DNA of 59,116 nt from Deltaproteobacteria bacterium (GCA_016935665.1 JAFGQN010000130.1:1-59116); one strand, 5' to 3'; shown: positions 15,089 to 32,644, counted from the first letter of the stretch. Program-made: numbers and translations. The notes: a model not told the origin generated them from the letters alone.

Positions 15089-16882
15089 TTAAAAAGGCCA
15101 GATCAATGGAGACAGAACGACCGCAACCAGACCAATGGCCAAATTCAAAGGAATGCCAAATTTGAGATAATCACCAAATCGATATCCCCCCGGTCCGTAC
15201 ACCATCATGTTGGTTTGATATCCGATGGGTGTGGCAAAACTGGCGGACGCTCCCACCATGATGCACATAACAAAGGGCATCGGATTGACATCCAGGCGCA
15301 CGGCGGTGCTCATGGCAATGGGGAAAACAAGCGCTGCGGCCGCATTGTTGGTAATTATCTCTGTAAAGAATGTGGTCACCACATATACCATACCAAGGGC
15401 CAGCCAGGGATCATCGTGAACCAGATTTATGACACCAACGGCAATCGCTTCTGCGGCTTTTGTCTGTTCGAGCGCGGCGCCAAATCCAAGCGCAGCGGCA
15501 ATAACAATGAGAACATCCCATTCAATGCTTCGTCGGGCCTGCGCAGGAGAGCTGCATTTGCAGGCAAACATGGCGCCGGCAGCCAGAAGCGCAGCGTTAA
15601 GCATATCCAGCAGATTGAACGCAACAGCGCTAACCATGCTCAACAAAATCAGAGCAGCGAAAGGGGCCCTGTCGTATCGTCTGGGTGAGGCGTTCTCGAT
15701 ACCACTCACCAGATAAAAATCTCTTGAGTCCTTTTGCCGTGGGATGAATCCGGCGTGGGCCTCTACCAATAGCAGGTCACCTGTCCGAAGGCGAATATCA
15801 CCAATCTTTCCACGCAGTCGTTCTCCATTGCGAGCCACGGCGATGACCACGGCGTTGTAAACATTGCGAAATCGACCTTCCCGAATGGTTTTTCCAACCA
15901 GAGAGCAGGTGTGAGAGACCACCGCTTCCACCAGAATTCGCTGATGGCGAGCGCCTGTCAATTTAAACAGTTGCCCCGGAGCGGGTTCCAGCCCCTGCTG
16001 TTCATACAGAGAGCGGACGGAATCGATGTTTCCCACAAAAACAAGCCGGTCACCCTTTTCGATGATCTGATCGGGGGACACCGCGGATATAACCTGTTCA
16101 TCGCGAATTATTTCGGCAATAAAGGCCCCTGGAAGATTGCGCAGTCCGGATTTGCCAATGGAATGACCTATCAGCGAACTGTTATGAGCGACCTCCAACT
16201 CCAATGTGTATTCAAGCGGATTTTCGAATATTTCGCCTGCGGGTTTCCTATCGGGCAGCCGTGTCTTTCCAAAAAGTACCAGATATGCGATACCGACAAT
16301 GGCACAGGGAATGCCGATTTTTGCAATATCAAACATGCCCAACCCATCATTGTGAAATCGCTCCTGTACCATGGTGTTCACAACCAGATTTGTACTGGTG
16401 CCAATCAGTGTACAGATCCCTCCAAAAATAGAGGCATAACTGAGAGGGATTAAAAGCTTCGACGGCGAGATGCCAAGACGCCGACACCAACTGGTGACTA
16501 CGGGAATGAACATGGCCACAACCGGCGTGTTGTTCAGAAATGCGCTCAGACCAATGACCGGCGGAAGGAGTCGCAGCTGTGCGGAGCGGATTCCCTCTGG
16601 ATGTCCGAGTATTTTTGAAGAAATCCAGGTCAGGGCGCCCGTTTCCTGAAGTCCGGCGACAACCACATACAACAATCCCACAGTGATCATTCCCGGCGCC
16701 GAGAATCCCTGCAACGCAGAATTCACATCAAGCACACTGGATACCAGCAACACAGTAAGCCCCGCCATGAATACCAAATCCGCGGATAGGCGGGTGAAGA
16801 TAAGAACACCAAGAACCGTTATAGTGACAGCCATGGATACCCACGCCTGCCATCCGAGAACCGAAAACGAAATCGTCTCCAT
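15089..16882 (-). CDS. SLC13/DASS-type anion permease with two RCK_C (TrkA_C) domains, probable sulfate transporter
   Basis: A 597-residue membrane permease: hydrophobic helices in about 10-205, two soluble TrkA-C-like domains (about 210-290 and 300-385), then helices to the end. Conserved SLC13 stretches are NNTPVVAMFIPVV and a second NNAAAALVFPIA with the nearby TPIGYQTNMMVYGPGG. Relatives with this layout include sulfate permeases such as the algal SAC1/SLT type and bacterial uncharacterised anion carriers. It is the last gene of the sulfate ABC operon (27 bases after cysA), which supports sulfate or a related oxyanion as substrate. It gives the operon a secondary, ion-coupled carrier next to an ATP-driven one. 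Confidence 0.85.
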   Translation of the reverse strand: METISFSVLGWQAWVSMAVTITVLGVLIFTRLSADLVFMAGLTVLLVSSVLDVNSALQGFSAPGMITVGLLYVVVAGLQETGALTWISSKILGHPEGIRSAQLRLLPPVIGLSAFLNNTPVVAMFIPVVTSWCRRLGISPSKLLIPLSYASIFGGICTLIGTSTNLVVNTMVQERFHNDGLGMFDIAKIGIPCAIVGIAYLVLFGKTRLPDRKPAGEIFENPLEYTLELEVAHNSSLIGHSIGKSGLRNLPGAFIAEIIRDEQVISAVSPDQIIEKGDRLVFVGNIDSVRSLYEQQGLEPAPGQLFKLTGARHQRILVEAVVSHTCSLVGKTIREGRFRNVYNAVVIAVARNGERLRGKIGDIRLRTGDLLLVEAHAGFIPRQKDSRDFYLVSGIENASPRRYDRAPFAALILLSMVSAVAFNLLDMLNAALLAAGAMFACKCSSPAQARRSIEWDVLIVIAAALGFGAALEQTKAAEAIAVGVINLVHDDPWLALGMVYVVTTFFTEIITNNAAAALVFPIAMSTAVRLDVNPMPFVMCIMVGASASFATPIGYQTNMMVYGPGGYRFGDYLKFGIPLNLAIGLVAVVLSPLIWPF

Positions 16883-16909: not shown

Positions 16910-17986
16910 TTAAAAAGAGATGTTGTCATACTCACCACGTTCGGGAAAAATCCGAACCCGTTTCACTTTGGCATTTACCTCCGCGCCCACTTTAAGATTC
17001 TTTGAACGCCAGTCATCCAGCGAGAGTTCCACTTCCATTGATGCCGCGTCACTGCTATCCTTCGGAGAAAACAGTGTGCGCACCACCGGGCCAACCCGTC
17101 TGGCATAGGTGATAATACCTTTGGTACTTTGCGAATCATCGTGCGACCTGCAATATTCAATGTCCCCACTTCGGATGTAGGCTTTGGCCACCACCGGAAT
17201 ATCCGCTTTGTACGTGTCTTTGAACGTGAGGCCGCAAAAGTGGCTACCTCTGTGGTCTATCATACCGTCCAACACATTGACGTTGCCCACAAAATCCATC
17301 ACGAATGCGTTTGCGGGATGATCAAAAATATCGTCGGGCGCACCGCTCTGTTCCACACGGCCATTGTTTAAAATGACCACCCGGTCCGCCACCTCGAACG
17401 CCTCCTCCTGGTCGTGGGTAACGAATACGGTTGTGACGTGAATGTCGTTGTGAAGACGTCGCAGCCAACGACGTAAATCCTGACGGACTCTGGCATCCAA
17501 TGCACCAAAGGGTTCGTCGAGCAGCAACACTTTGGGGTTCGGCGCAAGGGCCCTGGCCAGCGCCACACGCTGACGCTGGCCGCCCGACAATTCCGAAGGC
17601 AACCGCCGTTCCAGTCCGTCCAGCTGCATCAGGGATACCAGTTCAGCCACTCTTTCCGCTGTTTCGGCCCGGCTCGCTTTTCTCACGCGCAGCCCAAATG
17701 CAATATTCTGTGCCACTGTCATATGTTGAAAAAGCGCGTAATGCTGAAACACAAATCCCACATTGCGGGTTCGAACCGGATGATCGGTGACATCTGTTTC
17801 TCCAAAAATCACATGACCGGTTTCAGGAGTTTCCAAACCCGCAATGACGCGCAACAGCGTTGTTTTTCCAGAACCGGAAGGACCCAGCAGCGCCACGAGT
17901 TCACCGGATGGAACAGTCACATCCACGGCGTCGAGCGCAGGAAAATAGCCAAATGCCTTTGATACTTTTCTAATGTCAATTTTCAT
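16910..17986 (-). CDS. cysA: Sulfate/thiosulfate ABC transporter ATPase CysA
   Basis: ATP-hydrolysing subunit that powers sulfate import with CysT and CysW. Walker A is GPSGSGKTT (about 36-44), the Q-loop QHYALFQHM, signature [15 protein letters not shown], Walker [13 protein letters not shown] and the switch [17 protein letters not shown]-terminal TOBE-like domain follows (about 240-358). Its ATG overlaps the CysW TGA (ATGA, 17983-17986), so the pair is coupled. Length 358 is normal. The operon arrangement and the sulfate-binding lipoprotein gene upstream support the sulfate assignment over other oxyanions. Confidence 0.93.
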
Positions 17987-18885
17987 TGAGCAGCCTCCAG
18001 GGTGCGCTTCCGGTTTTCGGATGCCCTGCTTTTTTCCATAAATTCTGCGACTGATTTTATTCCAAGCGTAATGAACGCCATGGCCACCAATAGTGTGGCC
18101 ACTGCAAATGCGGCTGAAAAATGATACTCGTTGTACACCACTTCCACATGTAACGGCAACGTATTGGTCTCTCCGCGAATGTGACCGGAGACAACCGACA
18201 CTGCACCAAATTCACCCACAGCTCGGGCGGTGCACAGGATGGTGCCGTACAACAGGCCCCATTTAATGTTGGGAAGTGTGACCATGCGCAGCATTTGCCA
18301 GGGGCTGGCCCCAAGAGTGAGGGCTGCCAGTTCCATATCGGCGCCCTGGGATTGCATAACAGGAATAAGTTCTCTGGCGACGAACGGAAACGTAACAAAG
18401 GTTGTGGCAATGACAATACCCGGCAGGGCAAAAATGACTTTTATTCCATTTTCCAACAGCCACCCGCCAATGACGCTGTTGGCGCCAAACAGGAGAACAA
18501 AAATCATTCCCGAAATGACCGGCGATACCGCAAACGGCACATCTATCAGGCTTAGGACGAATCGTTTAAAAGGAAAATCAAATCTCGTGATGGACCATGC
18601 TGCAGCGAACCCAAAAACAATATTCAGGGGCACAGCGATAACAACGGCCAGCAGCGTTACCTTGATAGCTGAGACGGTGTCCGGATCCATAAGCGCGTTC
18701 AGATAGTTTGGCACGCCATCGCGAAACGCGGTTTGAAACACCACGACCAGCGGCAATATCAGCACCATAAAAATAAAACAGAGAGACGTGAAAATTAACC
18801 CCCAGCGCAACCAGAGAGGGTCAGACACACCCTTGGAAGAGTTGGTTCGTATGGCGCGCGCCGTCATATCCATTGCGGGTTTCAT
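17983..18885 (-). CDS. cysW: Sulfate ABC transporter permease CysW
   Basis: Inner-membrane permease, 300 residues, with about six hydrophobic helices and a BPD-transport loop: [27 protein letters not shown] matches the EAA motif that contacts CysA. The region after it ([28 protein letters not shown]) is characteristic of CysW. It starts 4 bases after the CysT stop and overlaps cysA by 4 bases. The polar first 25 residues precede the first helix; an internal ATG at residue 5 is also possible. Confidence 0.92.
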
Positions 18886-18889
18886 TCCA

Positions 18890-19804
18890 TTATCCCTTCA
18901 AAAAGGACCGTACTCGAAGCACATTTGCGAAAGATACGGATCGATGTTTGGTTTTCCACTGAACGCTGTTCACAATGAACAGCACGGTAAAAGACGCCAG
19001 CAGCATCACCAGGGCCAGTGCAGTGGCGCCGCGATAGTCGAATTGTTCCAATTTGGTCATGATCAGCAGCGGCACGATTTCAGTGCGATGGGGCATGTTC
19101 CCTGAGATAAAGACAATCGATCCGTATTCGCCCAGCGCTCGCGCAAAACTTAAGGCAAATCCGGTAAACAGCGCAGGAGCCAAATGGGGTAAAATCACTT
19201 TGAAAAAAGTGCGAACCCGGCCTGCTCCAAGTGTGGCTGCGGCTTCTTCCACATCCACCGAAAGTCCTTCCAGCACGGGTTGAACCGTTCTGACCACAAA
19301 GGGCAGGCCCACAAACACCATGGCCACCAATACGCCCAGACGCGCATACGCCACCAAAATTCCCGCTCTGCCAAGGGGTTCGCCCAAAGGACCATTGGGA
19401 CCCCATACGGCCGTCAGCGCAATACCCGCCACAGCGGTGGGCACCGCAAACGGCAAATCGATAATGGCATCAATGAGTTTCTTTGCAAAAAAATTGTATC
19501 TCACCAGCACCCACGCCAGCATGAGACCAAAAATGCAATTAATTGTTGCCGCTAAAAGTGCTCCCAGAAAGCTCAGACCATAAGCGGCAACAGCGCGGGG
19601 CGCCGTGACGACAGCGATGAAATCGCGCCATTCCATGGCTGCGGTTTCAAACACAATCGTAGATAGGGGAATGAGAACCAATAGACCCAGGTAGGCCAGG
19701 CAATAGCCAAGACTCAATTTAAAACCAGGCAGCGGGTTTCGATGCGTCCTTTGGCACACGGTAATTTTGGCGGCCGTCATCTGTGCCGTACGTTCCATGT
19801 TCAT
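18890..19804 (-). CDS. cysT: Sulfate ABC transporter permease CysT
   Basis: Inner-membrane permease partner of CysW, 304 residues. It has the EAA loop (EEAAATLGAGRVRTFFKVILP) and the family stretch FARALGEYGSIVFISGNMP. The second half is rich in hydrophobic helices. Its start overlaps the last 4 bases of the sulfate-binding protein gene. The first 25 residues are polar; the ATG eight codons in (MTAAKIT) is an alternative start. Confidence 0.92.
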   Translation of the reverse strand: MNMERTAQMTAAKITVCQRTHRNPLPGFKLSLGYCLAYLGLLVLIPLSTIVFETAAMEWRDFIAVVTAPRAVAAYGLSFLGALLAATINCIFGLMLAWVLVRYNFFAKKLIDAIIDLPFAVPTAVAGIALTAVWGPNGPLGEPLGRAGILVAYARLGVLVAMVFVGLPFVVRTVQPVLEGLSVDVEEAAATLGAGRVRTFFKVILPHLAPALFTGFALSFARALGEYGSIVFISGNMPHRTEIVPLLIMTKLEQFDYRGATALALVMLLASFTVLFIVNSVQWKTKHRSVSFANVLRVRSFLKG

Positions 19805-20853
19805 CTGCTTTCTGCGGTTGAGTAGATTCGGTCAAATTCGCCACCGTCTGCAAAATGTCGCTTTTGAGCAGCGTTCCAGCCACCCGCAATTTCGTCGACG
19901 GTGACCATCTGAATTTTGGGGAACTTATCACTGAATTGTTTTGCCGCAGTTTGTGACCGGGGCCGGAAATTGTGTTTTCCGACAATCTGTTGAATTTTTT
20001 CATTGTACAAAAAATTGAGATATTCTTTTGCCACATCACAGGTATTGTGTTTTTTACAATTGGCATCCACCAGTGATACCGATGGTTCGGCCAGGATGCT
20101 CATTGAGGGGTAAACAACGTCGAATTTACCCTCCCCGAACTCTCTTTTTGCGAGCAGCGCTTCGTTTTCCCAGGCCAGCAGTACGTCTCCAATACCCCTT
20201 TCCACAAACGTATTGGTCGAACCGCGTGCGCCGGAATCCAGCACTGGCACATTTCCAAACAACAAGCCAAGATACTCGCGCGCTTTTACTTCACTTCCCC
20301 ACTTTTTCATGGCGAACGCCCAGCCGGCGAGGTAATTCCAGCGGGCGCCACCCGACGTTTTGGGATTGGGAGTAATTACCTGAACGCCGGGATCCACCAG
20401 GTCTCCCCAGTCTTTGATGCCTTTGGGATTCCCCCTGCGAACCAGAAACACGATGGTGGATGTATACGGCGCGCTGTTGCCCGGTAAACGGGAACGCCAC
20501 TTCAGATTCATCAGACCTTTTTCGGCAATGGCATTGAGGTCGTATTCCAGCGCAAGGGTCACCACATCCGCTTCAAGACCATCCATCACCGCCCGGGCCT
20601 GCTTGCCCGCGCCGCCATGGGACATCTTTATTTCCACGTTCTGATTCGATGTTTGCTTCCAGTGAGCAGCAAACAGCGGATTAATCTCCTGATACAATTC
20701 CCGGGTCGGGTCATAAGAAACGTTCAACATTTCCACATGATTATCGGTTTTGGACGCGATTGACTTTTGACCGCAACCGGCAAGGGGCAACAGTGTCACA
20801 AAGACAACAATGTTGATGCAGTGGCGTATACTGAGTATTTTTAAACGAACCAT
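19801..20853 (-). CDS. sbp: Sulfate-binding lipoprotein (Sbp/CysP family)
   Basis: Extracytoplasmic receptor delivering sulfate to CysTWA. The signal ends in the lipobox LAGC (Cys27), so it is membrane-anchored rather than free periplasmic as in Escherichia coli. Family landmarks: NVSYDPTRELYQEIN, SHGGAGKQARAVMDGLEADVVTLALEYD, NPKTSGGARWNYLAGWA, DVLLAWENEA and KEYLNFLYNEKIQQI. Length 350. ATG at 20853 is preceded by AAAGGACA at good spacing. It is the first gene of a five-gene operon and carries a -24/-12 promoter about 40 bases upstream. The divergent gene is a sigma54 activator. Confidence 0.93.
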   Translation of the reverse strand: MVRLKILSIRHCINIVVFVTLLPLAGCGQKSIASKTDNHVEMLNVSYDPTRELYQEINPLFAAHWKQTSNQNVEIKMSHGGAGKQARAVMDGLEADVVTLALEYDLNAIAEKGLMNLKWRSRLPGNSAPYTSTIVFLVRRGNPKGIKDWGDLVDPGVQVITPNPKTSGGARWNYLAGWAFAMKKWGSEVKAREYLGLLFGNVPVLDSGARGSTNTFVERGIGDVLLAWENEALLAKREFGEGKFDVVYPSMSILAEPSVSLVDANCKKHNTCDVAKEYLNFLYNEKIQQIVGKHNFRPRSQTAAKQFSDKFPKIQMVTVDEIAGGWNAAQKRHFADGGEFDRIYSTAESR

Positions 20854-20894: not shown

Positions 20895-20910
20895 TGCAAC
20901 TTTGATGCCG
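20895..20910 (-). promoter_or_regulatory. Sigma54 (-24/-12) promoter of the sulfate uptake operon
   Basis: On the minus strand: CGGCATCAAAGTTGCA. The GG and GC pairs are 12 bases apart, and TTGCA matches the -12 consensus exactly. The predicted start site is near 20884, giving a leader of about 31 bases before the sbp ATG. The divergent neighbour is a sigma54 activator, which makes the match more credible than sequence alone. Confidence 0.72.
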
Positions 20911-21031
20911 ATAGTTTTAAACCTCTTAAGTGGTTGTTTTTATTTTTATTTTATACTTAGCCACTCCGATGATATTCATTTGCCACCAAATATCGTTGAT
21001 TTTATATTTTTTATGGTGGTATAACGCCGAT

Positions 21032-22024
21032 ATGCCACAGTCTGGAATAATCATTGGCGCTGAAATGGGACTGGCCCGGGTGATGCAGCGGGTCGAAATC
21101 GTTGCCAACAAGGATTTGCCTGTGCTCATTCATGGTGAATCCGGCACGGGCAAGGAAGTCATTGCGCTGGCCATTCATCAACGTTCCCATCGAAAAGAAA
21201 AACCGTTTCGCCGGGTGAATTGCGGCGCCATTCCCCTGGAACTGATTGATTCCGAACTGTTTGGTCATGAGCTGGGCGCGTTTACGGGGTCCACCTCACG
21301 ACACAGAGGATGGTTTGAACAGGCGGACGGCGGCACACTATTGCTCGATGAAGTGGGAGAGTTGCCGCTGAATGCGCAGGTGCGACTGTTGCGTGTTATT
21401 CAGGAAGGGGAATTTACCAGAGTGGGTGGCGAAAAACCGATTCGTGTAGACGTGCGAATCATTGCCGCTACGCATCGCGATCTGCCCGCGATGATTGAGG
21501 AGAAGCTGTTTCGGGAGGATCTGTACTACCGATTGACGGTATTTCCAATTGTGATTCCGCCCCTTAGGGAGCGGCAGGACGACATATCTCTTTTGGCAGA
21601 ATACTTTGTCCAGCGTGCGACCACTCGATTTGGGTACAAGCCAATCCCAATTTTCGAAAAAGACATTGAGTTGCTAAAAAAATACGACTGGCCTGGGAAT
21701 ATCCGTGAATTTGCAGCGGTCATCGACCGGGCTGTATTGCTTGGAGATGGTGAGTGCCTTAAAACAGAGAAGGCGCTGGGTATCTCGTTGCCCAGGCAAT
21801 CCGCTCAAAAAACGATTTCACCCGGCGCACCGGTCACAAATGAAGCTGTTGATATTCAACCTTTAAATACTATTATTAAAGCATATATTGAAAAAGCACT
21901 GGTGGCGTGTTGCGGCAGAGTGGAAGGGCCGTTTGGCGCGGCAAAAAAGCTGGCTCTCAATCCCAACACGCTTCGTTCAAAAGCGAAGAAGCTGGGCATT
22001 GAAATAGAAAACTTCAGAGTATAA
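21032..22024 (+). CDS. Sigma54-dependent transcriptional activator without a sensor domain
   Basis: Bacterial enhancer-binding protein of 330 residues. The AAA+ domain starts almost at the N-terminus: Walker A GESGTGKE (35-42), the sigma54-contact loop GAFTGS (82-87), Walker B GGTLLLDEVGE, then REDLYYRLTVFPIVIPPLRER. A Fis-type helix-turn-helix closes the protein (GAAKKLALNPNTLRSKAKKLGI). There is no receiver, GAF, PAS or V4R domain, as in PspF-like activators, so control may come from a partner protein or from transcription. ATG at 21032 is preferred because family homology begins there; the frame is open for 34 more hydrophobic, AT-rich codons that look non-coding. It lies between two operons with -24/-12 promoters and is the obvious candidate to activate both. 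Confidence 0.9.
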   Translation: MPQSGIIIGAEMGLARVMQRVEIVANKDLPVLIHGESGTGKEVIALAIHQRSHRKEKPFRRVNCGAIPLELIDSELFGHELGAFTGSTSRHRGWFEQADGGTLLLDEVGELPLNAQVRLLRVIQEGEFTRVGGEKPIRVDVRIIAATHRDLPAMIEEKLFREDLYYRLTVFPIVIPPLRERQDDISLLAEYFVQRATTRFGYKPIPIFEKDIELLKKYDWPGNIREFAAVIDRAVLLGDGECLKTEKALGISLPRQSAQKTISPGAPVTNEAVDIQPLNTIIKAYIEKALVACCGRVEGPFGAAKKLALNPNTLRSKAKKLGIEIENFRV

Positions 22025-22111: not shown

Positions 22112-22160
22112 CAGGATCATCAATTCCCCAATTCCAATATCATTGTGAGGAATTAGACAA

Positions 22161-22178: not shown

Positions 22179-22303
22179 CGAATGCGACAGGCAGTAGTGA
22201 TTTAATTATTATTTTCGTCATCAGTTAACAGCGATAGTGAGGGTCGGCCTTTTGGACCCCTCCAATGGTGTGTTTGCAGCTGTCAGCGCGAACAATTTCT
22301 TTT

Positions 22304-22319
22304 TGGCACATGGTTTGCT
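22304..22319 (+). promoter_or_regulatory. Sigma54 (-24/-12) promoter of the hdr-apr-qmo-cysC operon
   Basis: TGGCACATGGTTTGCT matches the consensus TGGCAC-N5-TTGCW without a mismatch in the core and with the correct 12-base GG-to-GC spacing. Predicted transcription start is near 22330, 22 bases before the first ATG. Confidence 0.82.
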
Positions 22320-22351
22320 GAAGCAACCGCCAGACTCTTTCATGGACAAAA

Positions 22352-24553
22352 ATGATGAAACAGATGAATGCAGATTTTGGCTGGAGATATAAGGGACGAT
22401 GGGTTGGCGTGTATCGAGACCTCTCACGAGAAGGTACACCCGACAATAGCGTTAATAACAGCCGCAAAGAAAAAGACCGAACCCTCACATGTTTGCAATG
22501 CGGTATCTGCACAGCGGCATGCCACCTGGCAAAAGACAACAACGTGTTTCCCAGAAGGGAAATGAGCCTCGTTCAGGGAGGACTGGAAGATCGCGCAGTC
22601 ACCCTTCCTTCCATTTGGCATTGTTATCAATGCGATGATTGCACGCAAGGGTGTCCGTCTCTGGCGGGACCATCTGAAGTGATGGCGCAACTGCGAGCGA
22701 AAGCAATAACTGAATTCTCAATTCTCCCCGATTTTGCAAAGTGGTTGAATACACCCAAAGGATTCGCTTTTTTTTTTGGATTCGTATTGCTGCTTATTGG
22801 AATTCTGGGAATCATTTTTTCAGACCATGTGTGGGATCGAGATGCGGTGGTGTATAAAGCCATGTACCCGCATCGTCTTTTAATTCCTTTCTTTTCTTTA
22901 TTGACTTTGCTGTCATTTGCTTTGACTGGAATCAGCCTGGCAAAAGCATGGCGCACCTGGTGCGGATATGCACCGGCAATAAGACGTTTGAAAAGCAGTG
23001 TGTTTTGGCTATCGACTTTGCAGGCCATAACTGAAACTATCGCTCATTCTCGCTTTGCAGCATGCGAGACAAAGCGCTATCGTCGTTTAGCGCATATCCT
23101 TATCATCGCGGGATTCTCAGGGCTATGCGGCGTCGCTTTTGCTGCGGCTATTGCACCTTTGACAAATGCCAATCCCGACAGTCTTCAAAAGCCGTTCACC
23201 CTATTCAAAATATTCGCAAATATATTCTCAACTTGCCTGATCCTCGGTATTGGACTATTTCTCGTTTATCGACTTTCAACACTGAGCGACAAAACTGCAG
23301 TCGCATTTGAAGACTGGGTTTTCCCGTCATTGATGTTGGCAATCGTGTTCAGTGGTCTATTCAGTCAGTGGGCGAGATGGGCGAACGTTGGCGTTATTGC
23401 ATATCCTGTTTATGTGTTTCATCTATCGTCGGTATTTGTGCTGATTGCAACGCTGCCGTTTGCAAAACCGGCGCATGCATTGTACAGATTGGCTGCTGAG
23501 ATTCACAGAATCGCTTTGGAAAGAAGCGTGATGCTGAACGCATCCGATGTTTTTTTTAACCCAAATAAAATTCAACAGCGATTTGGCGAAAACACTGACG
23601 TGGAAAATTCAAAAGCTGTGGATATGTGTCTGGTTAAAGATGCGCCATTTCTGTTGTGTCATGAAGACGCAAAAAATATTGCAGACACTGTTATTATCGA
23701 CACATACAATACGCTGAGGGATTCATACCGGAAGGTCAACGGCGAAAAGCTTTTTTACAATATCGAAAATCTTTACGGCACTGCTTTTGAAAGAGAAAAA
23801 GATCGACGGGAGCTGAGGCGAAGGCAAAAGTCCAATGACTCTGGAGAACTACCCGGATGGTATGAAGAAGCGGCAGGCAATACCTGTACATGGTGGCTGG
23901 AGAATCAACTGCTCGCACGTCATTCGCTTCGAAGTTGCATGTTTTGCGGCATGTGTACCGCTGTCTGTCCAGCTGCAGAACATTATGAGGAATATAATCC
24001 CAGAAGCATCGTGGATGCCGCATTATCCGGCAAAGAAGAAGAAATAATCGCACTGCTTAAGGCGGATACCATTTGGTATTGTGGACAATGCGGTTCCTGC
24101 AAGGAACGCTGTCCCAGGGGAAACAGTATCATGGGTCTTATATCCTCCCTGCGAATTCTGGCACAATTGAAGGGATACCATCTTTACAGCGCCAGAGGGC
24201 GTCAACAGTATGCATCGCGATATCTCTGGGGAAGCAATTTCTGGAATCGCGGATGCAGTCTTTATTTTCGGAATTGTGACAAATGGGCGCATCCCGATTT
24301 CGGACCTAACTATGAAAAATTTTTTGATCATCAGGAGCAGGAATTTTTGCGACTTGGCGCCAATCCTGACAGGCCAGGCATGTTTGGTGGCAGGAAAGTC
24401 AACACCGAAACTCTGGAAGAACTGCGTTCGCTGGTGGAAGCGGGTGGCACTATTGCCCTGTGGAAAAAAGTGGACGATTTTGGAAACAGTCATCGCTCAG
24501 AATTGAAACTCACTGAAGAAGCGTATCTGGAAATGGTTGCAAAGGAGGGTTGA
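22352..24553 (+). CDS. QmoC-like cytochrome b fused to an HdrC-like iron-sulfur domain
   Basis: A 733-residue fusion. Part 1 has two 4Fe-4S motifs (Cys47/50/53/57 and Cys91/94/97/101), then about six membrane helices (130-400). Three histidines stand in the same contexts as in the QmoC at 32659 (YPHRLLI / VPHWMIY, LAHILIIAGF / TGHFMIMWGF, FHLSSVF / THLGLVF) and are probable heme ligands. Part 2 is soluble and HdrC-like with two more clusters (Cys529/532/535/539 and Cys577/580/583/587). It is predicted to pass electrons between menaquinone and a cytoplasmic HdrB-type site, as HdrE-HdrD or DsrM-DsrK do with separate or differently joined parts. It is the first gene after the sigma54 promoter. 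The first ATG is used; 22355 and 22364 are close alternatives with equally weak ribosome sites. Confidence 0.85.
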   Translation: MMKQMNADFGWRYKGRWVGVYRDLSREGTPDNSVNNSRKEKDRTLTCLQCGICTAACHLAKDNNVFPRREMSLVQGGLEDRAVTLPSIWHCYQCDDCTQGCPSLAGPSEVMAQLRAKAITEFSILPDFAKWLNTPKGFAFFFGFVLLLIGILGIIFSDHVWDRDAVVYKAMYPHRLLIPFFSLLTLLSFALTGISLAKAWRTWCGYAPAIRRLKSSVFWLSTLQAITETIAHSRFAACETKRYRRLAHILIIAGFSGLCGVAFAAAIAPLTNANPDSLQKPFTLFKIFANIFSTCLILGIGLFLVYRLSTLSDKTAVAFEDWVFPSLMLAIVFSGLFSQWARWANVGVIAYPVYVFHLSSVFVLIATLPFAKPAHALYRLAAEIHRIALERSVMLNASDVFFNPNKIQQRFGENTDVENSKAVDMCLVKDAPFLLCHEDAKNIADTVIIDTYNTLRDSYRKVNGEKLFYNIENLYGTAFEREKDRRELRRRQKSNDSGELPGWYEEAAGNTCTWWLENQLLARHSLRSCMFCGMCTAVCPAAEHYEEYNPRSIVDAALSGKEEEIIALLKADTIWYCGQCGSCKERCPRGNSIMGLISSLRILAQLKGYHLYSARGRQQYASRYLWGSNFWNRGCSLYFRNCDKWAHPDFGPNYEKFFDHQEQEFLRLGANPDRPGMFGGRKVNTETLEELRSLVEAGGTIALWKKVDDFGNSHRSELKLTEEAYLEMVAKEG

Positions 24554-24554
24554 T

Positions 24555-25634
24555 ATGACAACACACTCAACAGTGACACAGCAGTATTTATTACCCAGAA
24601 TGAATGATGCGTTCTATTTAACGCCAAGTTGCATTCTGGGTTCTTTCAGCCCTGCAATCGAACCATTAATTTCAACAATTTATGAACTGCTGGGAATTCG
24701 GGGAAAAGACACCGTTGGAAAGCCCGAATCTCAGGGCACATGCTGTTCCGGAATTCTGTTCCACGGCGATGTCATTACTTTGGAAAGCACATTGATGATA
24801 GTGGCGCGACTATGGCATGTGGCCGCTGAGGCGGGTTTTGACAGCCTGACAACAGCCTGTGTCACTTCATTTGGCGTCCACCAGGAATGCCTGGATATCC
24901 TTGAGAAGGACCGGAAAGCTGCCAAAATCGTTGACCAGCAGTTAAAAAAGGCAATTGGGAGGGAGCTGATTTTTCCCAAAAGAGTGCTTCACGCCAGTGA
25001 GGTTTTTTATATGTACCGAAGTCAGATTGCCAAATTGCTTTTGTATCGACTGGTCGAAAAAGATACAGGCAGAAAACTGAACGCGGTTGACCATGTGGGG
25101 TGTCACTACAACAAACTTTTCCCAAAGCGTGCAATTGGCGGGATGGAATTTTGTGAAGTGCTTACCGGCCCCATCGTGTCGTGGGGAGGCGCGGAAGTTG
25201 ACTATCCGGAACGACGGCATTGCTGTGGAATGGGTTTTCGCCAATGCATGGTGCAGCCGAACCGGGGATACACAATGGCGTGTGTATTGAAAAAGATGCG
25301 AAGCATGGCGTCATTCAATCCCGACCTTATTTTGACAAACTGCCCAGGATGTCAGCAGTTCCTCGATAAGGAACAATGGGCCATCTGGAAAATGACAGGG
25401 GAGCACTTTTTTGTACCGGTGCTCAACTATGCTGAATTAGCTGGGTTGCTTCTTGGTTATGACCCTTACGAACAGGTCGGCATTCAGTGTCATTCAGTTC
25501 CGGTGGAGCCGTTACTCGACAAAATTGGCATCCCGTATAATCGTGATTTTTATCTGTACAACGAAGAAGTTTTGAAACGAAATCCGCTAACTTATAAAAA
25601 TGAAAAACAGAAACGGGTTGGGAACGCGATATGA
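24555..25634 (+). CDS. HdrB-like CCG-domain protein
   Basis: A 359-residue heterodisulfide-reductase B relative. The second cysteine-rich (CCG) site is complete in pattern: VGCHY, HCCGMGF and NCPGC. The first is altered: LTPSC, GTCCSG and TTACVTSF, where the usual final CxxC has lost its second cysteine. In HdrB the two CCG sites bind unusual 4Fe-4S clusters that cleave a disulfide. With one site altered, the substrate or electron path may differ. ATG at 24555 follows AAAGGAGGGTTGAT, and the gene nearly abuts the fusion gene. It overlaps the next gene by 4 bases (ATGA). Confidence 0.83.
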   Translation: MTTHSTVTQQYLLPRMNDAFYLTPSCILGSFSPAIEPLISTIYELLGIRGKDTVGKPESQGTCCSGILFHGDVITLESTLMIVARLWHVAAEAGFDSLTTACVTSFGVHQECLDILEKDRKAAKIVDQQLKKAIGRELIFPKRVLHASEVFYMYRSQIAKLLLYRLVEKDTGRKLNAVDHVGCHYNKLFPKRAIGGMEFCEVLTGPIVSWGGAEVDYPERRHCCGMGFRQCMVQPNRGYTMACVLKKMRSMASFNPDLILTNCPGCQQFLDKEQWAIWKMTGEHFFVPVLNYAELAGLLLGYDPYEQVGIQCHSVPVEPLLDKIGIPYNRDFYLYNEEVLKRNPLTYKNEKQKRVGNAI

Positions 25635-26740
25635 ACGCAAAAGTTCTTATTATTGGTGGCGGAGTGACCGGAATGCACACCGCTTTGGTATTGGCGGATT
25701 TGGGAATCTCTTCTTTCATTGTTGAGAAAAAGGACTGTCTGGGCGGAAGAGTTCGATTTTTGTCCAGAACTTTTCCTTTCTTTACAGATGACGGATTTCA
25801 CAATGGCGCAGAGTTTACTCAGGATTTGGAGACTCTGGTAAAAAAATGCAATCGGATTGATGTCAAACTGAACACTCAGGTGGAATGTGTTAGCGGGCAG
25901 TTTCCCTGTTTTGATGTTCGGCTCAAAGATGGCAGTCAATATCAGGTTGGCGGTATTGTTGTGGCCACCGGATTTGAGCCTTTCGATCCTTCGTCGATGG
26001 GCGAATACGGTTATCGTCGATACGCAAATGTAATCACCGCACCAGAGTTGGAGTGGATGCTCAATATCAACGGCCCGACGCGTGGTGAACTTCGGCGTCC
26101 TTCTGATAGCGGGCCAGTTTCGCGAATGGCGATTATCTTCTGCGTGGGTTCCCGAAATCGCCGACTCGGTGCACCCTTTTGCTCAAGAATCTGTTGCTCC
26201 TACAGTACCAAACAGGCGCTCACTGTAATGGAAAAATCTCCCAAAACGGAGGTCTGTTGTTTTTATATGGATGTGCGTACATATGATCGTGGATTCGAAG
26301 AAATGTATTCTCTTGCACAGGAGAGGGGTGTTAAATATATCCGTGGACGCGTATCTGGATGCAAGGAGATGGATGACAAGAAAATTCATCTTCGCGCGGA
26401 ACACACTCTTATCCAAAAAATGTACGCCAATGAATTTGATCTGGTGTCGCTTTCAACAGGTATGCGTCCCTGCCTCGAAGCGGATTTGCTTGCAAAAACA
26501 CTGGGTATTCAGCGGTCTGACGATGGATTCTTTTCGAGTCGCGCATGGTTTCGCTTTCCTCACGATTCAACGCGCATGGGTATACTTATTGCCGGTTGCG
26601 CGACGGGAATGAAACCTATTCGAAATTGCATGATGGATGGTGCTGCGGCGGCTTCCAGAATGGCATCGCTTTTTAGACAACAAAGCAGTGTTTGCTGCGA
26701 CACATCCAATGGAACAAATTCTGAAACAGTAACGTTATAA
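25631..26740 (+). CDS. HdrA/QmoA-like flavoprotein without a ferredoxin domain
   Basis: A 369-residue FAD protein: dinucleotide loop IIGGGVTGMHTALVLADLG, EKKDCLGGRV, VVATGFEPFD and the HdrA-type cysteine segment FCVGSRNRRLGAPFCSRICCSYSTKQA. Unlike QmoA at 29154 it has no CxxCxxCxxxC ferredoxin motif and no second CxxC block. Translationally coupled to HdrB (ATGA). It would complete an HdrCBA-like unit with the two genes before it. Known HdrA proteins bifurcate electrons at FAD; whether this short form can do so is unknown. Confidence 0.85.
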   Translation: MNAKVLIIGGGVTGMHTALVLADLGISSFIVEKKDCLGGRVRFLSRTFPFFTDDGFHNGAEFTQDLETLVKKCNRIDVKLNTQVECVSGQFPCFDVRLKDGSQYQVGGIVVATGFEPFDPSSMGEYGYRRYANVITAPELEWMLNINGPTRGELRRPSDSGPVSRMAIIFCVGSRNRRLGAPFCSRICCSYSTKQALTVMEKSPKTEVCCFYMDVRTYDRGFEEMYSLAQERGVKYIRGRVSGCKEMDDKKIHLRAEHTLIQKMYANEFDLVSLSTGMRPCLEADLLAKTLGIQRSDDGFFSSRAWFRFPHDSTRMGILIAGCATGMKPIRNCMMDGAAAASRMASLFRQQSSVCCDTSNGTNSETVTL

Positions 26741-26781
26741 AAGGTCACGATACAAACTGTGTATGTGAACTGGAGGAAATT

Positions 26782-27222
26782 ATGCCAAGTTATGTTAACC
26801 CGGAAAAATGTGACGGCTGTAAAGCCCAGGATAAAACTGCATGTCAGTATATCTGTCCCAATAATTTAATGGTCCTCGACAAGGACAAAATGAAGGCCTA
26901 CAACCAGGAGCCAAATCAATGCTGGGAATGTCAGTGCTGCGTAAAAATATGCCCATCGCAAGCCATTGATATACGGGGATATGCTGACTTTGTCCCAATG
27001 GGGGCCAGTGTCGTGCCTTTGCGTTCAACAGACAGCATTATGTGGACAGTCAAATTTCGTAATGGCAGCATAAAGCGATTCAAATTCCCCATTCGTACAA
27101 CACCGGAAGGTAAAGCTGAACCACTTGGTGGATTCAAAGCCGCTTTGGAGATTGACAACCAGTTGCTTTGCACAGAACCGGAATCCATAGGAATGGATGA
27201 ACTGTGGACGACTGGCAAATAG
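26782..27222 (+). CDS. aprB: Adenylylsulfate reductase beta subunit AprB
   Basis: Iron-sulfur subunit of APS reductase, carrying electrons to the FAD of AprA. 146 residues, normal length. Two 4Fe-4S sites: CDGCKAQDKTACQYIC (with the insertion typical of AprB) and CWECQCCVKIC. Family stretches include PEKCDGC and WTVKFRNGSIKRFKFPIRTTPEG. A strong ribosome site GGAGGAAATT precedes the ATG. It follows the HdrA-like gene by 41 bases with no evident promoter. Confidence 0.96.
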   Translation: MPSYVNPEKCDGCKAQDKTACQYICPNNLMVLDKDKMKAYNQEPNQCWECQCCVKICPSQAIDIRGYADFVPMGASVVPLRSTDSIMWTVKFRNGSIKRFKFPIRTTPEGKAEPLGGFKAALEIDNQLLCTEPESIGMDELWTTGK

Positions 27223-27236
27223 AGGGAGTGATTAAA

Positions 27237-29117
27237 ATGGAACCGTTTGAAACCGTTGAAGTAAAAACTGATGTATTGATTCTTGGCGGTGGCATGTCCG
27301 CCTGTGGCGCTGCTGTTGAAGCGGCATATTGGGCTAAGAAGGAAGGCCTGAAGGTCACCCTTGTGGACAAAGCCGCACTGGATCGTTCGGGCGCTGTCGC
27401 CATGGGCCTTTCGGCCATCAACCAGTATGTGGGCCTTAAGGACAGTGAAAACACAATTCAGGATTATGTCGATTACGTGCGCAATGACCTGATGGGGATA
27501 ACTCGGGAGGATCTTGTGGCCAACATTGCGCGACATGTGGACAGCAGCGTGCACCTGTTTGAAAAGTGGGGACTGCCCATATGGAAAGATGATGATGGAA
27601 AATATGTGCATGAGGGTCGCTGGCAACTCATGATTAATGGTGAGTCGTACAAACCGATTGTCGCAGAGGCGGCAAAGAATGCGCTGGGCATGGAAAATAT
27701 TTATGAACGCGTTTTTATTACCGGCCCATTGATGGAAGACAACGTATGCAAAGGCGCAGTTGGGTTTTCGGTTCGTGAAAATAAGTTTTATGTGTTTAAG
27801 GCCAAAGCGGTGTTGGTGGCCATGGGAGGTGCTGTAGGCATTTTCAAGCCGCGGTCTTCAGGAGAAGGTGCAGGGCGTGCATGGTATCCGCCATTCAATT
27901 CAGCGGCATCGGCATATTTTACGATTAAAGCCGGCGCGGAAATGACATGTCAGGAAGTTCGATTTATTCCTGTTCGATTTAAAGACGCATATGGGCCGGT
28001 GGGGGCATGGTTTTTGCTGTTTAAATCAAGAGCGACCAATGCGCATGACGAAAACTATATGGAAACAAGGGCGACAGATTTGAAGAAGTATGGCCAATAT
28101 GGTGAGGTTAAACCTGTCCCCGCCAATCTGAGAAACTATTTGATGATGCGTGATATTGAAGATGGGAAGGGTCCAATTTTCATGCGTACTGAAGAAGCGA
28201 TTTCAGCTATCGCGGATCTGTACCAGGATGACCCCAAAGCGTTTAAAAAGAAAATCAGGTCTCTTGAAAACGAGGCATGGGAAGACTTTCTGGATATGAC
28301 CATTTCCCAGGCACTGCTGTGGGCGGCCACCAACATTGAACCCGACAAAAGCAAGTCAGAAATTGCGGCTGCGGAACCGTACTTTATCGGGTCACATTCC
28401 GGCGCATCAGGCGCCTGGGTGTCCGGTCCCGAGGACCTTGCTCCTGAAGAGTATTTCTGGGGATATACCAATATGACAACCGTCAACGGTCTTTTTGCCG
28501 CGGGCGATGCATCTGGTGCGTCATCGCACAAATTCTCTTCCGGCTCTCATGCGGAAGGTCGTATTGCGGCAAAAGCGGCATGTCGGTATGCATTGGACCA
28601 CAAAGGGCAAACCGAATATTGCAATGATGGGGAGATTGAAAAGCAAAAAGAAAATGTTTTCAAGCCACTTCAGGTATTTGAGGCAGCGCAGCATCTTTCC
28701 ACAGACCCTGAGATAAATCCTGGATACATTCTGCCCAACATGTTTCAGATGCGTTTGCAGAAAATGATGGATGAATATGCCGGTGGCGTCAGTTCGCAAT
28801 TCAAGACGTCAAAACCGGGTTTGGAAAAATGTCTGGAGCTGCTCACCTTTTTAATAGAGGATTCCGACAAATTGGGCGCTCGAAACTCTCATGAACTGAT
28901 GCGTTGCTGGGAAAATCGCCATCGCATGTATCAGGCAATCGCCCATGTTCGGTCATTAATGTTCAGAGATGAAACGCGATGGCCCGGATATTATGTGCGC
29001 ACAGACGCGCCCGAAATCAGTCTCGATAAATGGCATTGCTTTGTAAATGCGACGCTGGATCCACAAACCAATGAATGGTCAATGAAGGCTGTTCCCATTA
29101 AATCCATGAACGTCTGA
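27237..29117 (+). CDS. aprA: Adenylylsulfate reductase alpha subunit AprA
   Basis: FAD subunit that interconverts APS with sulfite and AMP. 626 residues. FAD-binding start VLILGGGMSACGAAVEAAYWAKK, then DKAALDRSGAVAMGLSAINQY, PIWKDDDGKYVHEGRWQLMINGE, GAEMTCQEVRFIPVRFKDAYGPVG and SGSHAEGRIAAKAACRY, all AprA landmarks. ATG at 27237 is chosen because GGGAGTG precedes it and the next-upstream start would overlap aprB. Direction of catalysis cannot be read from sequence. The neighbouring qmoABC genes are the usual electron partner in sulfate reducers, though Qmo also occurs in some sulfur oxidisers. Confidence 0.97.
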   Translation: MEPFETVEVKTDVLILGGGMSACGAAVEAAYWAKKEGLKVTLVDKAALDRSGAVAMGLSAINQYVGLKDSENTIQDYVDYVRNDLMGITREDLVANIARHVDSSVHLFEKWGLPIWKDDDGKYVHEGRWQLMINGESYKPIVAEAAKNALGMENIYERVFITGPLMEDNVCKGAVGFSVRENKFYVFKAKAVLVAMGGAVGIFKPRSSGEGAGRAWYPPFNSAASAYFTIKAGAEMTCQEVRFIPVRFKDAYGPVGAWFLLFKSRATNAHDENYMETRATDLKKYGQYGEVKPVPANLRNYLMMRDIEDGKGPIFMRTEEAISAIADLYQDDPKAFKKKIRSLENEAWEDFLDMTISQALLWAATNIEPDKSKSEIAAAEPYFIGSHSGASGAWVSGPEDLAPEEYFWGYTNMTTVNGLFAAGDASGASSHKFSSGSHAEGRIAAKAACRYALDHKGQTEYCNDGEIEKQKENVFKPLQVFEAAQHLSTDPEINPGYILPNMFQMRLQKMMDEYAGGVSSQFKTSKPGLEKCLELLTFLIEDSDKLGARNSHELMRCWENRHRMYQAIAHVRSLMFRDETRWPGYYVRTDAPEISLDKWHCFVNATLDPQTNEWSMKAVPIKSMNV

Positions 29118-29153
29118 ACCGATATTCTTTACCCGAACTACCGGAGGATAACC

Positions 29154-30404
29154 ATGGAAAAATCCATTCCCAATTCCACGATTCTCGTTGTTGGCGCCGG
29201 CATTGCCGGTATTAGCGTTGCTGCGGCTCTGGCTGAGACCGGCGCAAGATCACTGATAATTGAAAAAGAACCATGGATAGGAGGACGTGTCTCGCGTGTC
29301 GCACGGTATTTCCCAAAATTCTGTCCGCCATCGTGTGGCATGGAAATCCATGGCAGGCGACTGTATGAAAATCCGCGCATAGAGGTGATGGTCAATACCG
29401 TGATCAAGTCGGCCGATAAAAAAGGTGATGTTTGGCAGATCACCCTGGAAACCGCGCCATCGTACGTATCCGATGCCTGCACTGGTTGCGGTCAATGCAT
29501 TGCCGTTTGTCCAAAGTTCGCTCCAAATCCCTTTAATCTGGGAATGAACAAAATTAAGGCTATCGATTTTGTGCATCCCAATGTTCGCCCACATATACCA
29601 TTTCTCATGCGCGCCAACTGTGTAGCGAACTGCAATCGATGTGAGCAGCAATGCCCGGTTGGAGCCATTTCTCTGAATGCGACCAGAACTGAGAAAACTG
29701 TATTTGTAAAAACCATCGTCGCCGCAACAGGCTGGAGCCCATACGACATAAAGAATTTGCCATTATATGGTGCGGGAACCCTGGAGAATGTAATTCCCAA
29801 TGTGGTTATGGAGCGTCTATATTCGCCAGATGGTCCTACGGGGGGAAAAATTCTTAAAACAAACGGGGACCCCCCAAAAAAAGTAGCATTTGTTCAATGT
29901 GCAGGATCGCGCGATGCCAACCATTTGCCTTTTTGTTCTGAGGTATGCTGCGCTGCTTCCATAAAACAGGCGTCTTATGTGAAATCTCAAAACCCCAATG
30001 CGGAAGTGACCATTTATTACATTGACAGGCGCACCACAGGGCGAAACGAGTCCATGCTGGCAGACGCTATCGCAAATGATACGTGCCGATTTGTGAAGGG
30101 AAAAGTGGGAAAAATTGAAAAGCGAGGTGAGATGCTTTCTCTTCGGGTGGAAGACACCGAAGAATCCACCGTTATGGAAGCCGAAGCCGACATGGTGGTT
30201 CTGGCCCTTGGAATGACACCCACTCATTCAGCCGTTTCATTGCCACTGCCATTTCCGATGGATGATAACGGCTTTTTGGAAAATGCGCCCGATATTGGGC
30301 TAATTGCAGCCGGCACAAGTAAAGCGCCCTTTGATGTCGCATCAACGGTTAGAGATGCCGCCGGCGCAGCTGTGGAAGCATTGATTTGTGAAGGGGTGTT
30401 GTAA
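29154..30404 (+). CDS. qmoA: Quinone-interacting oxidoreductase subunit QmoA
   Basis: HdrA-type flavoprotein of the Qmo complex, thought to contact AprBA. 416 residues. FAD loop VVGAGIAGISVAAALAE, EKEPWIGGRV, the segment FPKFCPPSCGMEIH, a 4Fe-4S motif CTGCGQCIAVCP, CNRCEQQCPVGA and the HdrA block QCAGSRDANHLPFCSEVCCAASIKQA. Ribosome site GGAGGATAACC before ATG. Ends with TAA whose last base is the first base of qmoB. Confidence 0.94.
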   Translation: MEKSIPNSTILVVGAGIAGISVAAALAETGARSLIIEKEPWIGGRVSRVARYFPKFCPPSCGMEIHGRRLYENPRIEVMVNTVIKSADKKGDVWQITLETAPSYVSDACTGCGQCIAVCPKFAPNPFNLGMNKIKAIDFVHPNVRPHIPFLMRANCVANCNRCEQQCPVGAISLNATRTEKTVFVKTIVAATGWSPYDIKNLPLYGAGTLENVIPNVVMERLYSPDGPTGGKILKTNGDPPKKVAFVQCAGSRDANHLPFCSEVCCAASIKQASYVKSQNPNAEVTIYYIDRRTTGRNESMLADAIANDTCRFVKGKVGKIEKRGEMLSLRVEDTEESTVMEAEADMVVLALGMTPTHSAVSLPLPFPMDDNGFLENAPDIGLIAAGTSKAPFDVASTVRDAAGAAVEALICEGVL

Positions 30405-32644
30405 TGGATAGAACAGGCGTTTTTATATGCGGCGGATGCGGCATCAAAGATAAAACAGATATTGATGCCCTTTGTTCGACAACACTCAAAAAAGGCGCAA
30501 TTATTGCTCGAACGCACGATGCGTTGTGCAGTGCAGACGCGAGATTGGCAATTTTGGAGGAACTCGAAGCACAATCTCTTGATAGTGTACTAATAGCTGC
30601 ATGTTCGGTGCGACGTAAAAAAGCAGCATTCTCGCCCCTGAAGGAAAAAGCGGTAAATAAGCGGATATGTATTCGCGAGCAGGCAGCATGGTCCCGCGAT
30701 GCCAAAACAGAAGATATTCAATCAGCAGCGGCTGACCAGATATGCATGGGAATAGCAGCGCTTAGAAGTGAACAAAAAGCAACGGTTGGTTTTGTTGATG
30801 TCCGTCGCGCCGTTCTCGTTGTTGGGGCGGGTCTTTGTGGCATGGTTGCTGCGGATGCGATTGCCCGACTCGGATTTCAGGTTTACCTGGTTGAAAAGGA
30901 CGAGATACCTGGCGGATTTCTTAAAAGGACGGCCTCCGTTGCGCCCTTTCGGGCGCCGTATAACACGCCGGCTGTCAGCCCTGTAGAATACTGGAGTGAG
31001 GCGATTGCCTGTAACCGCAATATTACACTGCTAACCAGAACCGAAATTTCATCCATCAGTGGACAGCCAGGACAGTTTGAAGTCGATGTCGGCAGCAGGA
31101 AATTTGTTGTGGGCGCAGTCATTCAGGCCACTGGTGCAACGCCAGTGCCACTTGAGTCATTGCCGGCGATATATGATTTGAATTGTGCCGACATTGTTAC
31201 CGGCGCGGATTTTGAAAAGATGCTGGTAAATGAATCCACTTTCATAAAACCGTCAAACGGTACTGTCCCAAAAAATGTTGTGTTTATACAGTGCGCCGGG
31301 TCCCGAGACAGCGGCCAGCTTCCTTATTGCTCAAGGGAATGCTGCCAGATTACGCTCAAACAGATTCATCAGATTCAAAAAATCATGCCTGGGGTAGAAT
31401 GTCAGGTCATTTACCAGGACATGCGAACAACGGGAATGATGGAATTGTTTTATTCCGCAACACTTGAATTGGAAAATGTTTCGATGATTAAGGGCGATGT
31501 AAAACGGGTGACAAAAGTCGGTGATCAACTGACTGTATTTGTTGCCAATACCGTACTCGGAGAACAAATTCATATCACCACCGATCTGGTCGTGGCGGCG
31601 ACCGGGATGGTCCCCAACGCTGCTGACGGCGAAGCAATACGTGCAATTCGGGATGCAAAATTAACAATTGAAAAAAACGAATCGGCAGAACAGGTTTCAA
31701 ATGCACAGGAACGTATTGCATCTCTCGCGTATCTGGATACACCAGCTATTTTAAATCTCGATTATCGTCAGGGGCCCGACCTGCCGCAGCTGGCATATCG
31801 CTTTTTGGATTCTCACTTCATCTGTTTTCCTTACGAGACGAGGCGTACCGGAATATATGCGGCCGGTACAGTGCGGGCGCCTATGGATATTGCCATGGGA
31901 ATTTCAGACGCAAAGGGAGCTGCGCTGATGGCAGTGCAATGTATAGAAGGCGCAGCCAGAGGAGAATCGGCACTGCCGAGAATCGCAGATATAGAAACTG
32001 CCGATTTCTTCATGCAGCGCTGTACCCAATGCAAACGGTGCACAGAGGAATGTCCATATGGTGCACTAAATGAAGATGCAAAGGGGACGCCCCTTTACAA
32101 CCCTACCCGGTGTCGCCGGTGCGGTATCTGCCTGGGAGCATGTCCCGAACGGATTGTGTCGTTCCCTTCTTTCTCCATAGATACAGTGGTGTCAATGATT
32201 AAGGCGCCAGAGATACCGGACGAATTCGAAGAGAAGCCGCGTATTCTGGTATTTATGTGTGAAAACGACGCTGCACCCGCGTTGGATGCCGCCGTACAGC
32301 AGGGGTTGAAGATTAATCCCTGGGTCAGATTTATTGAAATTCGCTGTCTCGGCTCATTTCACAACGTCTGGGTGGCGGATGCATTGTCACATGGATACGA
32401 CGGTGTGCTTTTGATGGGCTGTAAACAGGGCGATGATTACCAGTGTCATAATATCCAGGGGTCCGCATTGGCACATACTCGAATTGCCAATATTGGAGAA
32501 ACACTGGATCGTCTGGCGCTTGAGAAGGACCGTGTCCGCGTGGTTGAGGTCGCCCGCGACGAATCTGCTCAGGCAGTTCAGTTTATTGAACAGTTTACCA
32601 AAGACATTGAGGCGCTTGGGCCAAATCCATTAAAGGGATTTTGA
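30404..32644 (+). CDS. qmoB: Quinone-interacting oxidoreductase subunit QmoB
   Basis: A 746-residue Qmo subunit with HdrA-like and MvhD-like parts. The N-terminal 125 residues form a small domain beginning FICGGCG. Then FAD loop VVGAGLCGMVAADAIARLG, QCAGSRDSGQLPYCSRECC, two ferredoxin motifs CTQCKRCTEECPYGA and CRRCGICLGACPERI, and a C-terminal MvhD-like domain (about 610-745; LVFMCENDAAPALDAA, IEIRCLGSF, GVLLMGCKQGDDYQCH). Overlaps qmoA by one base. Length and order are as in sulfate-reducer QmoB. Confidence 0.94.
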   Translation: MDRTGVFICGGCGIKDKTDIDALCSTTLKKGAIIARTHDALCSADARLAILEELEAQSLDSVLIAACSVRRKKAAFSPLKEKAVNKRICIREQAAWSRDAKTEDIQSAAADQICMGIAALRSEQKATVGFVDVRRAVLVVGAGLCGMVAADAIARLGFQVYLVEKDEIPGGFLKRTASVAPFRAPYNTPAVSPVEYWSEAIACNRNITLLTRTEISSISGQPGQFEVDVGSRKFVVGAVIQATGATPVPLESLPAIYDLNCADIVTGADFEKMLVNESTFIKPSNGTVPKNVVFIQCAGSRDSGQLPYCSRECCQITLKQIHQIQKIMPGVECQVIYQDMRTTGMMELFYSATLELENVSMIKGDVKRVTKVGDQLTVFVANTVLGEQIHITTDLVVAATGMVPNAADGEAIRAIRDAKLTIEKNESAEQVSNAQERIASLAYLDTPAILNLDYRQGPDLPQLAYRFLDSHFICFPYETRRTGIYAAGTVRAPMDIAMGISDAKGAALMAVQCIEGAARGESALPRIADIETADFFMQRCTQCKRCTEECPYGALNEDAKGTPLYNPTRCRRCGICLGACPERIVSFPSFSIDTVVSMIKAPEIPDEFEEKPRILVFMCENDAAPALDAAVQQGLKINPWVRFIEIRCLGSFHNVWVADALSHGYDGVLLMGCKQGDDYQCHNIQGSALAHTRIANIGETLDRLALEKDRVRVVEVARDESAQAVQFIEQFTKDIEALGPNPLKGF

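Follow-up and report, generated by a model that had tools for sequence, protein, structure and literature searches.

Several systems that combine Hdr-type and Qmo-type proteins have been described. In HdrED and DsrMK, HdrC is fused to HdrB (as HdrD or DsrK) and cytochrome b is a separate protein. QmoAB-HdrBC and QmoAB-HdrD arrangements are also known, and the former, present in Gram-positive sulfate reducers and some sulfur oxidizers, lacks QmoC and is thought not to be membrane-coupled (PMC10504309). In sulfur oxidation, the sHdr genes follow the layout hdrC1B1A-hyp-hdrC2B2 (PMC6067878; PMC6335251); the destination of the sHdr electrons has been proposed rather than demonstrated, transfer to NADH via LbpA being one proposal (PMC6335251). 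For Ca. Methanoglobus, which has no HdrB in its genome, a QmoC-HdrC fusion has already been reported that clusters with two HdrA and MvhAGD (PMC10945360).

Here, we analysed a stretch of 59,116 nucleotides (GCA_016935665.1, JAFGQN010000130.1:1-59116; hereafter the window), which is contig C191 of a Myxococcota draft genome of 8.16 Mb and 95% completeness. An initial annotation had placed a QmoC-HdrC fusion gene, an HdrB-like gene and an HdrA-like gene ahead of aprBA-qmoABC. All three were found there on the plus strand, and aprBA-qmoABC was confirmed as well; the extent of the operon had to be corrected, since it also ends in cysC. The nine genes (22352-34510, plus strand) encode the fusion, HdrB, HdrA, AprB, AprA, QmoA, QmoB, QmoC and CysC, with intergenic gaps that range from overlap up to 49 bp (Table 1). 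All nine reading frames are intact and retain their cluster ligands. Gene content, motifs and this tight organization support the suggestion that the apr-qmo operon encodes a second quinone-linked electron unit.

Table 1. Coordinates of the operon, its upstream neighbours and promoter-like elements in the window.
Feature	Position	Strand	Basis or remark
CitMHS/DASS-type anion permease with TrkA-C domains	15089..16882	-	Pfam CitMHS, Na_sulph_symp, TrkA_C
Sulfate ABC importer sbp-cysT-cysW-cysA	16910..20853	-	Divergent from operon; NCBIfam, all four above cut-off
Sigma-54-like -24/-12 element upstream of sbp, CGGCATCAAAGTTGCA	20895..20910	-	One-mismatch scan; weak alone
Sigma-54-dependent AAA+ activator, PspF/NorR-like	20930..22024	+	Pfam Sigma54_activat 234 bits
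Exact sigma-54 promoter consensus TGGCAC-N5-TTGCT	22304..22319	+	Exact match
QmoC-HdrC fusion, 733 aa	22352..24553	+	QmoC-like at aa 1-390 and HdrC1-like at aa 470-733, joined by a linker
HdrB (HdrB1-like)	24537..25634	+	Start more likely ATG at 24555
Short HdrA, single FAD domain	25631..26740	+	Colinear with sHdrA (PDB 6TJR)
AprB	26782..27222	+	TIGR02060 213 bits, above cut-off
AprA	27204..29117	+	TIGR02061 896 bits, above cut-off; start more likely 27237
QmoA, fast-evolving	29154..30404	+	Homology to QmoA of class members; branch length
QmoB, fast-evolving	30404..32644	+	Homology and branch length
QmoC proper, fast-evolving	32659..33822	+	NF038018 323 bits, cut-off 300
CysC, stand-alone APS kinase	33872..34510	+	NCBIfam apsK 261 bits

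The fusion protein contains four CxxCxxCxxxC motifs (at aa 47, 91, 529 and 577), that is, four [4Fe-4S] motifs, and hydropathy places its five membrane helices as in QmoC. Residues 45-382 matched the QmoC model with 256 bits, which is below the NF038018 (QmoC) equivalog cut-off of 300 that the operon's own QmoC passes, and residues 525-609 matched HdrC models with 98-110 bits. Both elements of QmoC-family anatomy, two cluster motifs and a membrane domain with conserved histidines, are present, and five histidines are common to the fusion and true QmoC proteins. The QmoC half would be expected to bind two b hemes and to exchange electrons with (mena)quinone. We considered whether this half is a duplicate of the operon's QmoC, which was ruled out by an identity of only 32% between the two and by its separate phylogenetic position: the QmoC halves of the fusion and of a second one described below form their own branch at 96/93, with long branches. 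An AlphaFold model of the fusion, built on a two-row alignment, had a mean pLDDT of 39.

Among 318 genomes of the class, matches spanning the whole fusion were identified in the window genome and in one other, Myxococcota bacterium isolate Prado146 (G082), which belongs to the same family; the fusion is thus rare. The two fusions share 43% identity over their full length, and in G082 the fusion gene is likewise followed by hdrB (58% identity to the window HdrB); the contig ends inside this hdrB, and the short hdrA is missing there. Recurrence in a second Myxococcota genome rules out that the fusion is an assembly artefact, one of two objections foreseen in the initial annotation; as to the other, that the fusion is an already characterised subunit, no characterised form was found. 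Neither AprA nor QmoC was found in G082, which, like the occurrence of the module in only two genomes, argues against the reading that we favour below, although the contig is cut short. Two other genomes of the same genus gave no match for the fusion, QmoC or AprA. In 379 evenly drawn genomes of the phylum, the HdrC half had no other strong match, and the HdrB matches across the phylum were ordinary Hdr proteins with just 20-28% identity. A scan of genome contigs for the HdrC half with two narrow peptide patterns retrieved G082 only, which is no evidence of absence elsewhere, and a scan of viral contigs gave no match.

In the HdrB protein, a Ser replaces the final Cys of the first CCG domain (C32, C69, C70, C108, S111) and the second domain is complete (C189, C229, C230, C269, C272), leaving one intact CCG domain. 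The AlphaFold model of HdrB, again built on a two-row alignment, had a mean pLDDT of 31. The short HdrA has a single FAD domain and no iron-sulfur inserts, and its residues 5-349 align end to end with residues 4-341 of sHdrA (6TJR). In the phylogenetic tree it falls with HdrA/sHdrA, apart from QmoA and QmoB, with support of 99/98; the sHdrA grouping inside HdrA has just 81/87 support.

The best matches in the plasmid collection were three adjacent genes on a plasmid of Picosynechococcus PCC 7003 (NZ_CP016476), with the same gene order and identities of 42% (HdrC), 43% (HdrB) and 36% (HdrA). On the plasmid this block is followed by a second HdrC, a second HdrB, which is much less similar to the window HdrB (22%), and a flavoprotein resembling sulfide:quinone reductase. 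A degenerate first CCG site (CVTSF replacing CxxC) together with a complete second one is common to the window HdrB and the plasmid HdrB1. The plasmid region (L067, NZ_CP016476.1, 11206-16946) thus reads as an sHdr-like hdrC1-B1-A-C2-B2 set plus an SQR-like gene, and no LbpA is annotated nearby. On a plasmid of Acidithiobacillus ferrooxidans (L068, NZ_AP025161.1, 787-4490), an HdrB-like gene lies near a GcvH/LbpA-like gene, a DUF2249 gene and hemerythrins.

By sequence comparison, the C1-B1-A block of an sHdr-like cluster is the best match found for the HdrC-HdrB-HdrA half of the window module. The two share the gene order hdrC1-hdrB1-hdrA, and the window HdrA is reduced to one FAD domain and the first CCG site is degenerate, as in sHdr and in the Picosynechococcus HdrB1, respectively. 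They differ in that the window HdrC is fused to a QmoC-like membrane anchor, C2B2 and LbpA were not found in the window genome, and the module adjoins apr-qmo-cysC and a sulfate importer. HdrED and DsrMK likewise combine cytochrome b, HdrC-type clusters and a CCG catalytic protein; in the window, by contrast, it is cytochrome b that carries HdrC, HdrB has a gene of its own and HdrA is added. An HdrD/DsrK origin of the Hdr half was ruled out, the best match found being sHdr-like C1-B1-A, with HdrB encoded separately. The earlier view that the module recombines the parts of HdrED/DsrMK was therefore not upheld, the C, B and A proteins being closest to sHdr-like C1-B1-A and HdrA grouping with HdrA/sHdrA rather than QmoA or QmoB.

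Of the claim that these parts stand in a new order, only a portion can be kept. The QmoC-HdrC fusion itself is not new: compared by description, the fusion of Ca. Methanoglobus also joins QmoC to HdrC and is clustered with HdrA-type proteins, but it belongs to a hydrogenase cluster of a methanogenic archaeon, whereas the window combines it with HdrB, a single-FAD HdrA and apr-qmo. This remaining combination appears to be new. In the open-access literature subset, we found no report of a membrane-anchored sHdr-type C1-B1-A in an apr-qmo operon unaccompanied by detectable dsr or sat. Compared with QmoABC that accompanies AprBA, the window operon contains the complete set and the N-terminal half of the fusion is QmoC-like, but the fusion carries an additional HdrC domain and falls short of the QmoC equivalog cut-off, the Qmo proteins are strongly diverged, and dsr and sat were not found.

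The region upstream of the operon points to regulation by sigma-54. An exact -24/-12 consensus lies 32 bp 5' of the fusion gene, with 0.18 such matches expected over the two strands of the entire window. The number of one-mismatch matches across the window is at chance level, and the element upstream of sbp counts by its position. The activator gene, which lacks a receiver domain, sits between the sulfate importer and the operon. In G082, a near-consensus sigma-54 element is present at the start of the fusion gene (with a pattern loosened after sequence inspection), and a sulfate importer adjoins an activator gene (68% identity over 116 aa); at the sulfate importer loci of relatives, the contigs break just upstream of sbp. 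Because promoter-like sites and an activator gene are present in both genomes, the operon and the adjacent sulfate importer probably form one sigma-54 regulon. The neighbouring anion permease is possibly a sulfate carrier, and its membership of the regulon is uncertain.

Other features of the window are noted here. The G+C content of the operon is 45-49% (22001-34000), compared with about 50-54% across most of the flanks, a hint that the operon may have a separate origin. A Sulfotransfer_2 protein (166-1200) is a possible PAPS user if the operon CysC makes PAPS, and a hybrid NRPS/PKS-like megasynthase of 1900 aa, judged by eye, is encoded at 8773-14475.

To place the operon in its metabolic context, we searched the whole draft genome (95% complete) for other sulfur genes. 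The best DsrA score against TIGR02064 was 38 bits compared with a cut-off of 393, and the sole NIR_SIR gene encodes a NirA/Sir-like siroheme reductase. PF01747, for Sat-type ATP sulfurylase, had no match, CysD and CysNC being present instead. PF02754 gave one HdrB and two other CCG proteins, so that HdrC2/HdrB2 were not found in the genome; LbpA was not found either, as the only GCV_H gene sits in gcvT-gcvH-gcvPA. It is likely that dsr, sat and lbpA are absent from the cell, even if one dsr cluster could fall in the missing part of a 95%-complete draft. A separate assimilatory set consists of CysD, CysNC, a CysH whose cysteine pairs are those of Fe-S APS reductases, and the one siroheme reductase. 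The same genome encodes an HdrF/GlpC-like enzyme of 674 aa (L042, 13548-15572), probably a membrane protein, which has two CCG domains and a 4Fe-4S dicluster domain. Of the 13 other AprA carriers in the set of QmoC-bearing relatives, 12 have DsrA. G225 (locus L034; 93% complete) is a second member of the class in which apr-qmo is present but no DsrA match was found; it has no fusion.

The best reading of these data is that the module is a quinone-linked thiol/disulfide or sulfane-sulfur oxidoreductase that serves APS/sulfite metabolism together with a strongly diverged Qmo. The initial annotation had named a thiol/disulfide or sulfur carrier as the possible partner, and this remains plausible. 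For complex formation, electron path, substrate and direction, we infer the following scheme. Quinone would exchange electrons with the b hemes of the QmoC half, and the path would continue via the fusion's two pairs of ferredoxin-type clusters to HdrB. The single complete non-cubane-cluster site of HdrB would act on a carrier of thiol/disulfide or sulfane-sulfur type, and the short HdrA would contribute flavin. The module would be co-produced with AprBA-QmoABC and CysC from a sigma-54-controlled operon adjacent to a sulfate importer. Its most likely role would therefore lie in APS/sulfite turnover, where it would form a second quinone branch alongside the modified Qmo complex and outside Dsr respiration. 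We give roughly even chances that a membrane-anchored, quinone-linked HdrC-HdrB-HdrA module, made with these proteins, serves APS/sulfite turnover in this way. Given the neighbouring sulfate importer and AprBA-Qmo, we favour a role in APS/sulfite metabolism that is reductive or balances redox, and the direction is probably reductive; since the genome has CysDNC, CysH and a siroheme reductase, a reductive role would not be needed for assimilation. The oxidative reading, from sulfur via sulfite and APS to PAPS, is less likely.

In its most specific form, the oxidative reading makes the module a cut-down sHdr system: HdrC1-B1-A would oxidise carrier-bound sulfane sulfur to sulfite and deliver electrons to quinone via the fused QmoC, AprBA-Qmo would convert sulfite to APS, and CysC would convert APS to PAPS. 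The C1-B1-A gene order as in sHdr (PMC6067878), the similarity to an sHdr-like cluster, the stand-alone CysC that closes the operon, and the view that AprBA with Qmo is oxidative in some sulfur oxidizers (PMC2211403) all fit this explanation. We consider it doubtful, as HdrC2/HdrB2, Sat and LbpA, the last described as inevitably associated with sHdr, were not found in the genome, and the operon adjoins a sulfate importer, not genes of thiosulfate or sulfide oxidation.

Phylogenetic analysis of the operon's remaining proteins bears on two further explanations. The branches of the window QmoA, QmoB and QmoC measure 1.55, 1.46 and 2.32, compared with about 0.05-0.23 in G083 and G085 of the same family, and are thus 7 to 30 times longer; the AprA branch (0.24 vs 0.11 in G083) is about twice as long, the mistranslated AprA sequence of G085 having been left out of this comparison. 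AprA keeps W234, R265 and H398 (A. fulgidus numbering; alignment to 1JNR), which we take to be active-site residues of the A. fulgidus enzyme. AprB retains the Lys14/Asp17 loop, the proposed docking site for Qmo (PMC2211403). From these comparisons, conservation of the APS reductase seems to contrast with change in its electron partner, as if Qmo had acquired a different partner or role, and conserved AprBA with changed Qmo would fit a new companion module. In relatives, a conserved cysteine-rich gene (YkgJ-like, judged by eye) lies directly 5' of qmoA (L028, 9567-10367; L032, 4599-5432; L031, 5419-6243), between aprA and qmoA where both are present, and in L028 qmoC is followed by a sat-like gene. 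Neither the cysteine-rich gene nor the sat-like gene is present in the window operon.

Strong Qmo divergence would also be expected if HdrB, HdrC and HdrA were extra Qmo subunits that join QmoAB and aid AprBA by electron confurcation, with no substrate of their own. All the genes lie in one operon, and QmoAB-HdrBC and QmoAB-HdrD provide precedents (PMC10504309), the former, compared by description, also being encoded as HdrB and HdrC with apr and qmoAB. The reported QmoAB-HdrBC cases, however, lack QmoC and a membrane link, whereas the window has QmoC as well and a membrane-anchored HdrC, and the second genome has the fusion without detected Qmo; extra subunits are therefore an improbable explanation. 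A decaying remnant of sulfate respiration, in which dsr and sat were lost, Qmo is drifting and the extra genes are passengers, would account for the very long Qmo branches and for the missing DsrA of a genome whose AprA-bearing counterparts nearly all have it (12 of 13), but it is very unlikely given nine intact reading frames with retained cluster ligands, a slowly evolving AprA with its active-site residues kept, and an exact consensus promoter.

The favoured reading, a quinone-linked thiol/disulfide or sulfane-sulfur oxidoreductase working beside APS reductase, suggests that sulfate/sulfite and thiol chemistry are connected by an uncharacterised, quinone-linked route. A wider possibility, which we regard as rather unlikely, is that AprBA-Qmo takes part in a route independent of Dsr, in which its APS reduction (or sulfite oxidation) would be coupled, via the quinone-reactive membrane sHdr-type module, to a protein- or thiol-bound sulfur intermediate; if true, it would represent a quinone-linked sHdr variant that works without LbpA and without HdrC2B2. 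The gene fusion, in which an HdrC1 partner is directly attached to a quinone module of QmoC type, hints that Hdr of this type can be linked to quinones. The window genome has an APS reductase and Qmo pair, but Dsr and Sat were not detected, whereas most other Apr carriers of the phylum have Dsr; it thus offers a test case for the role of AprBA-Qmo outside sulfate respiration.
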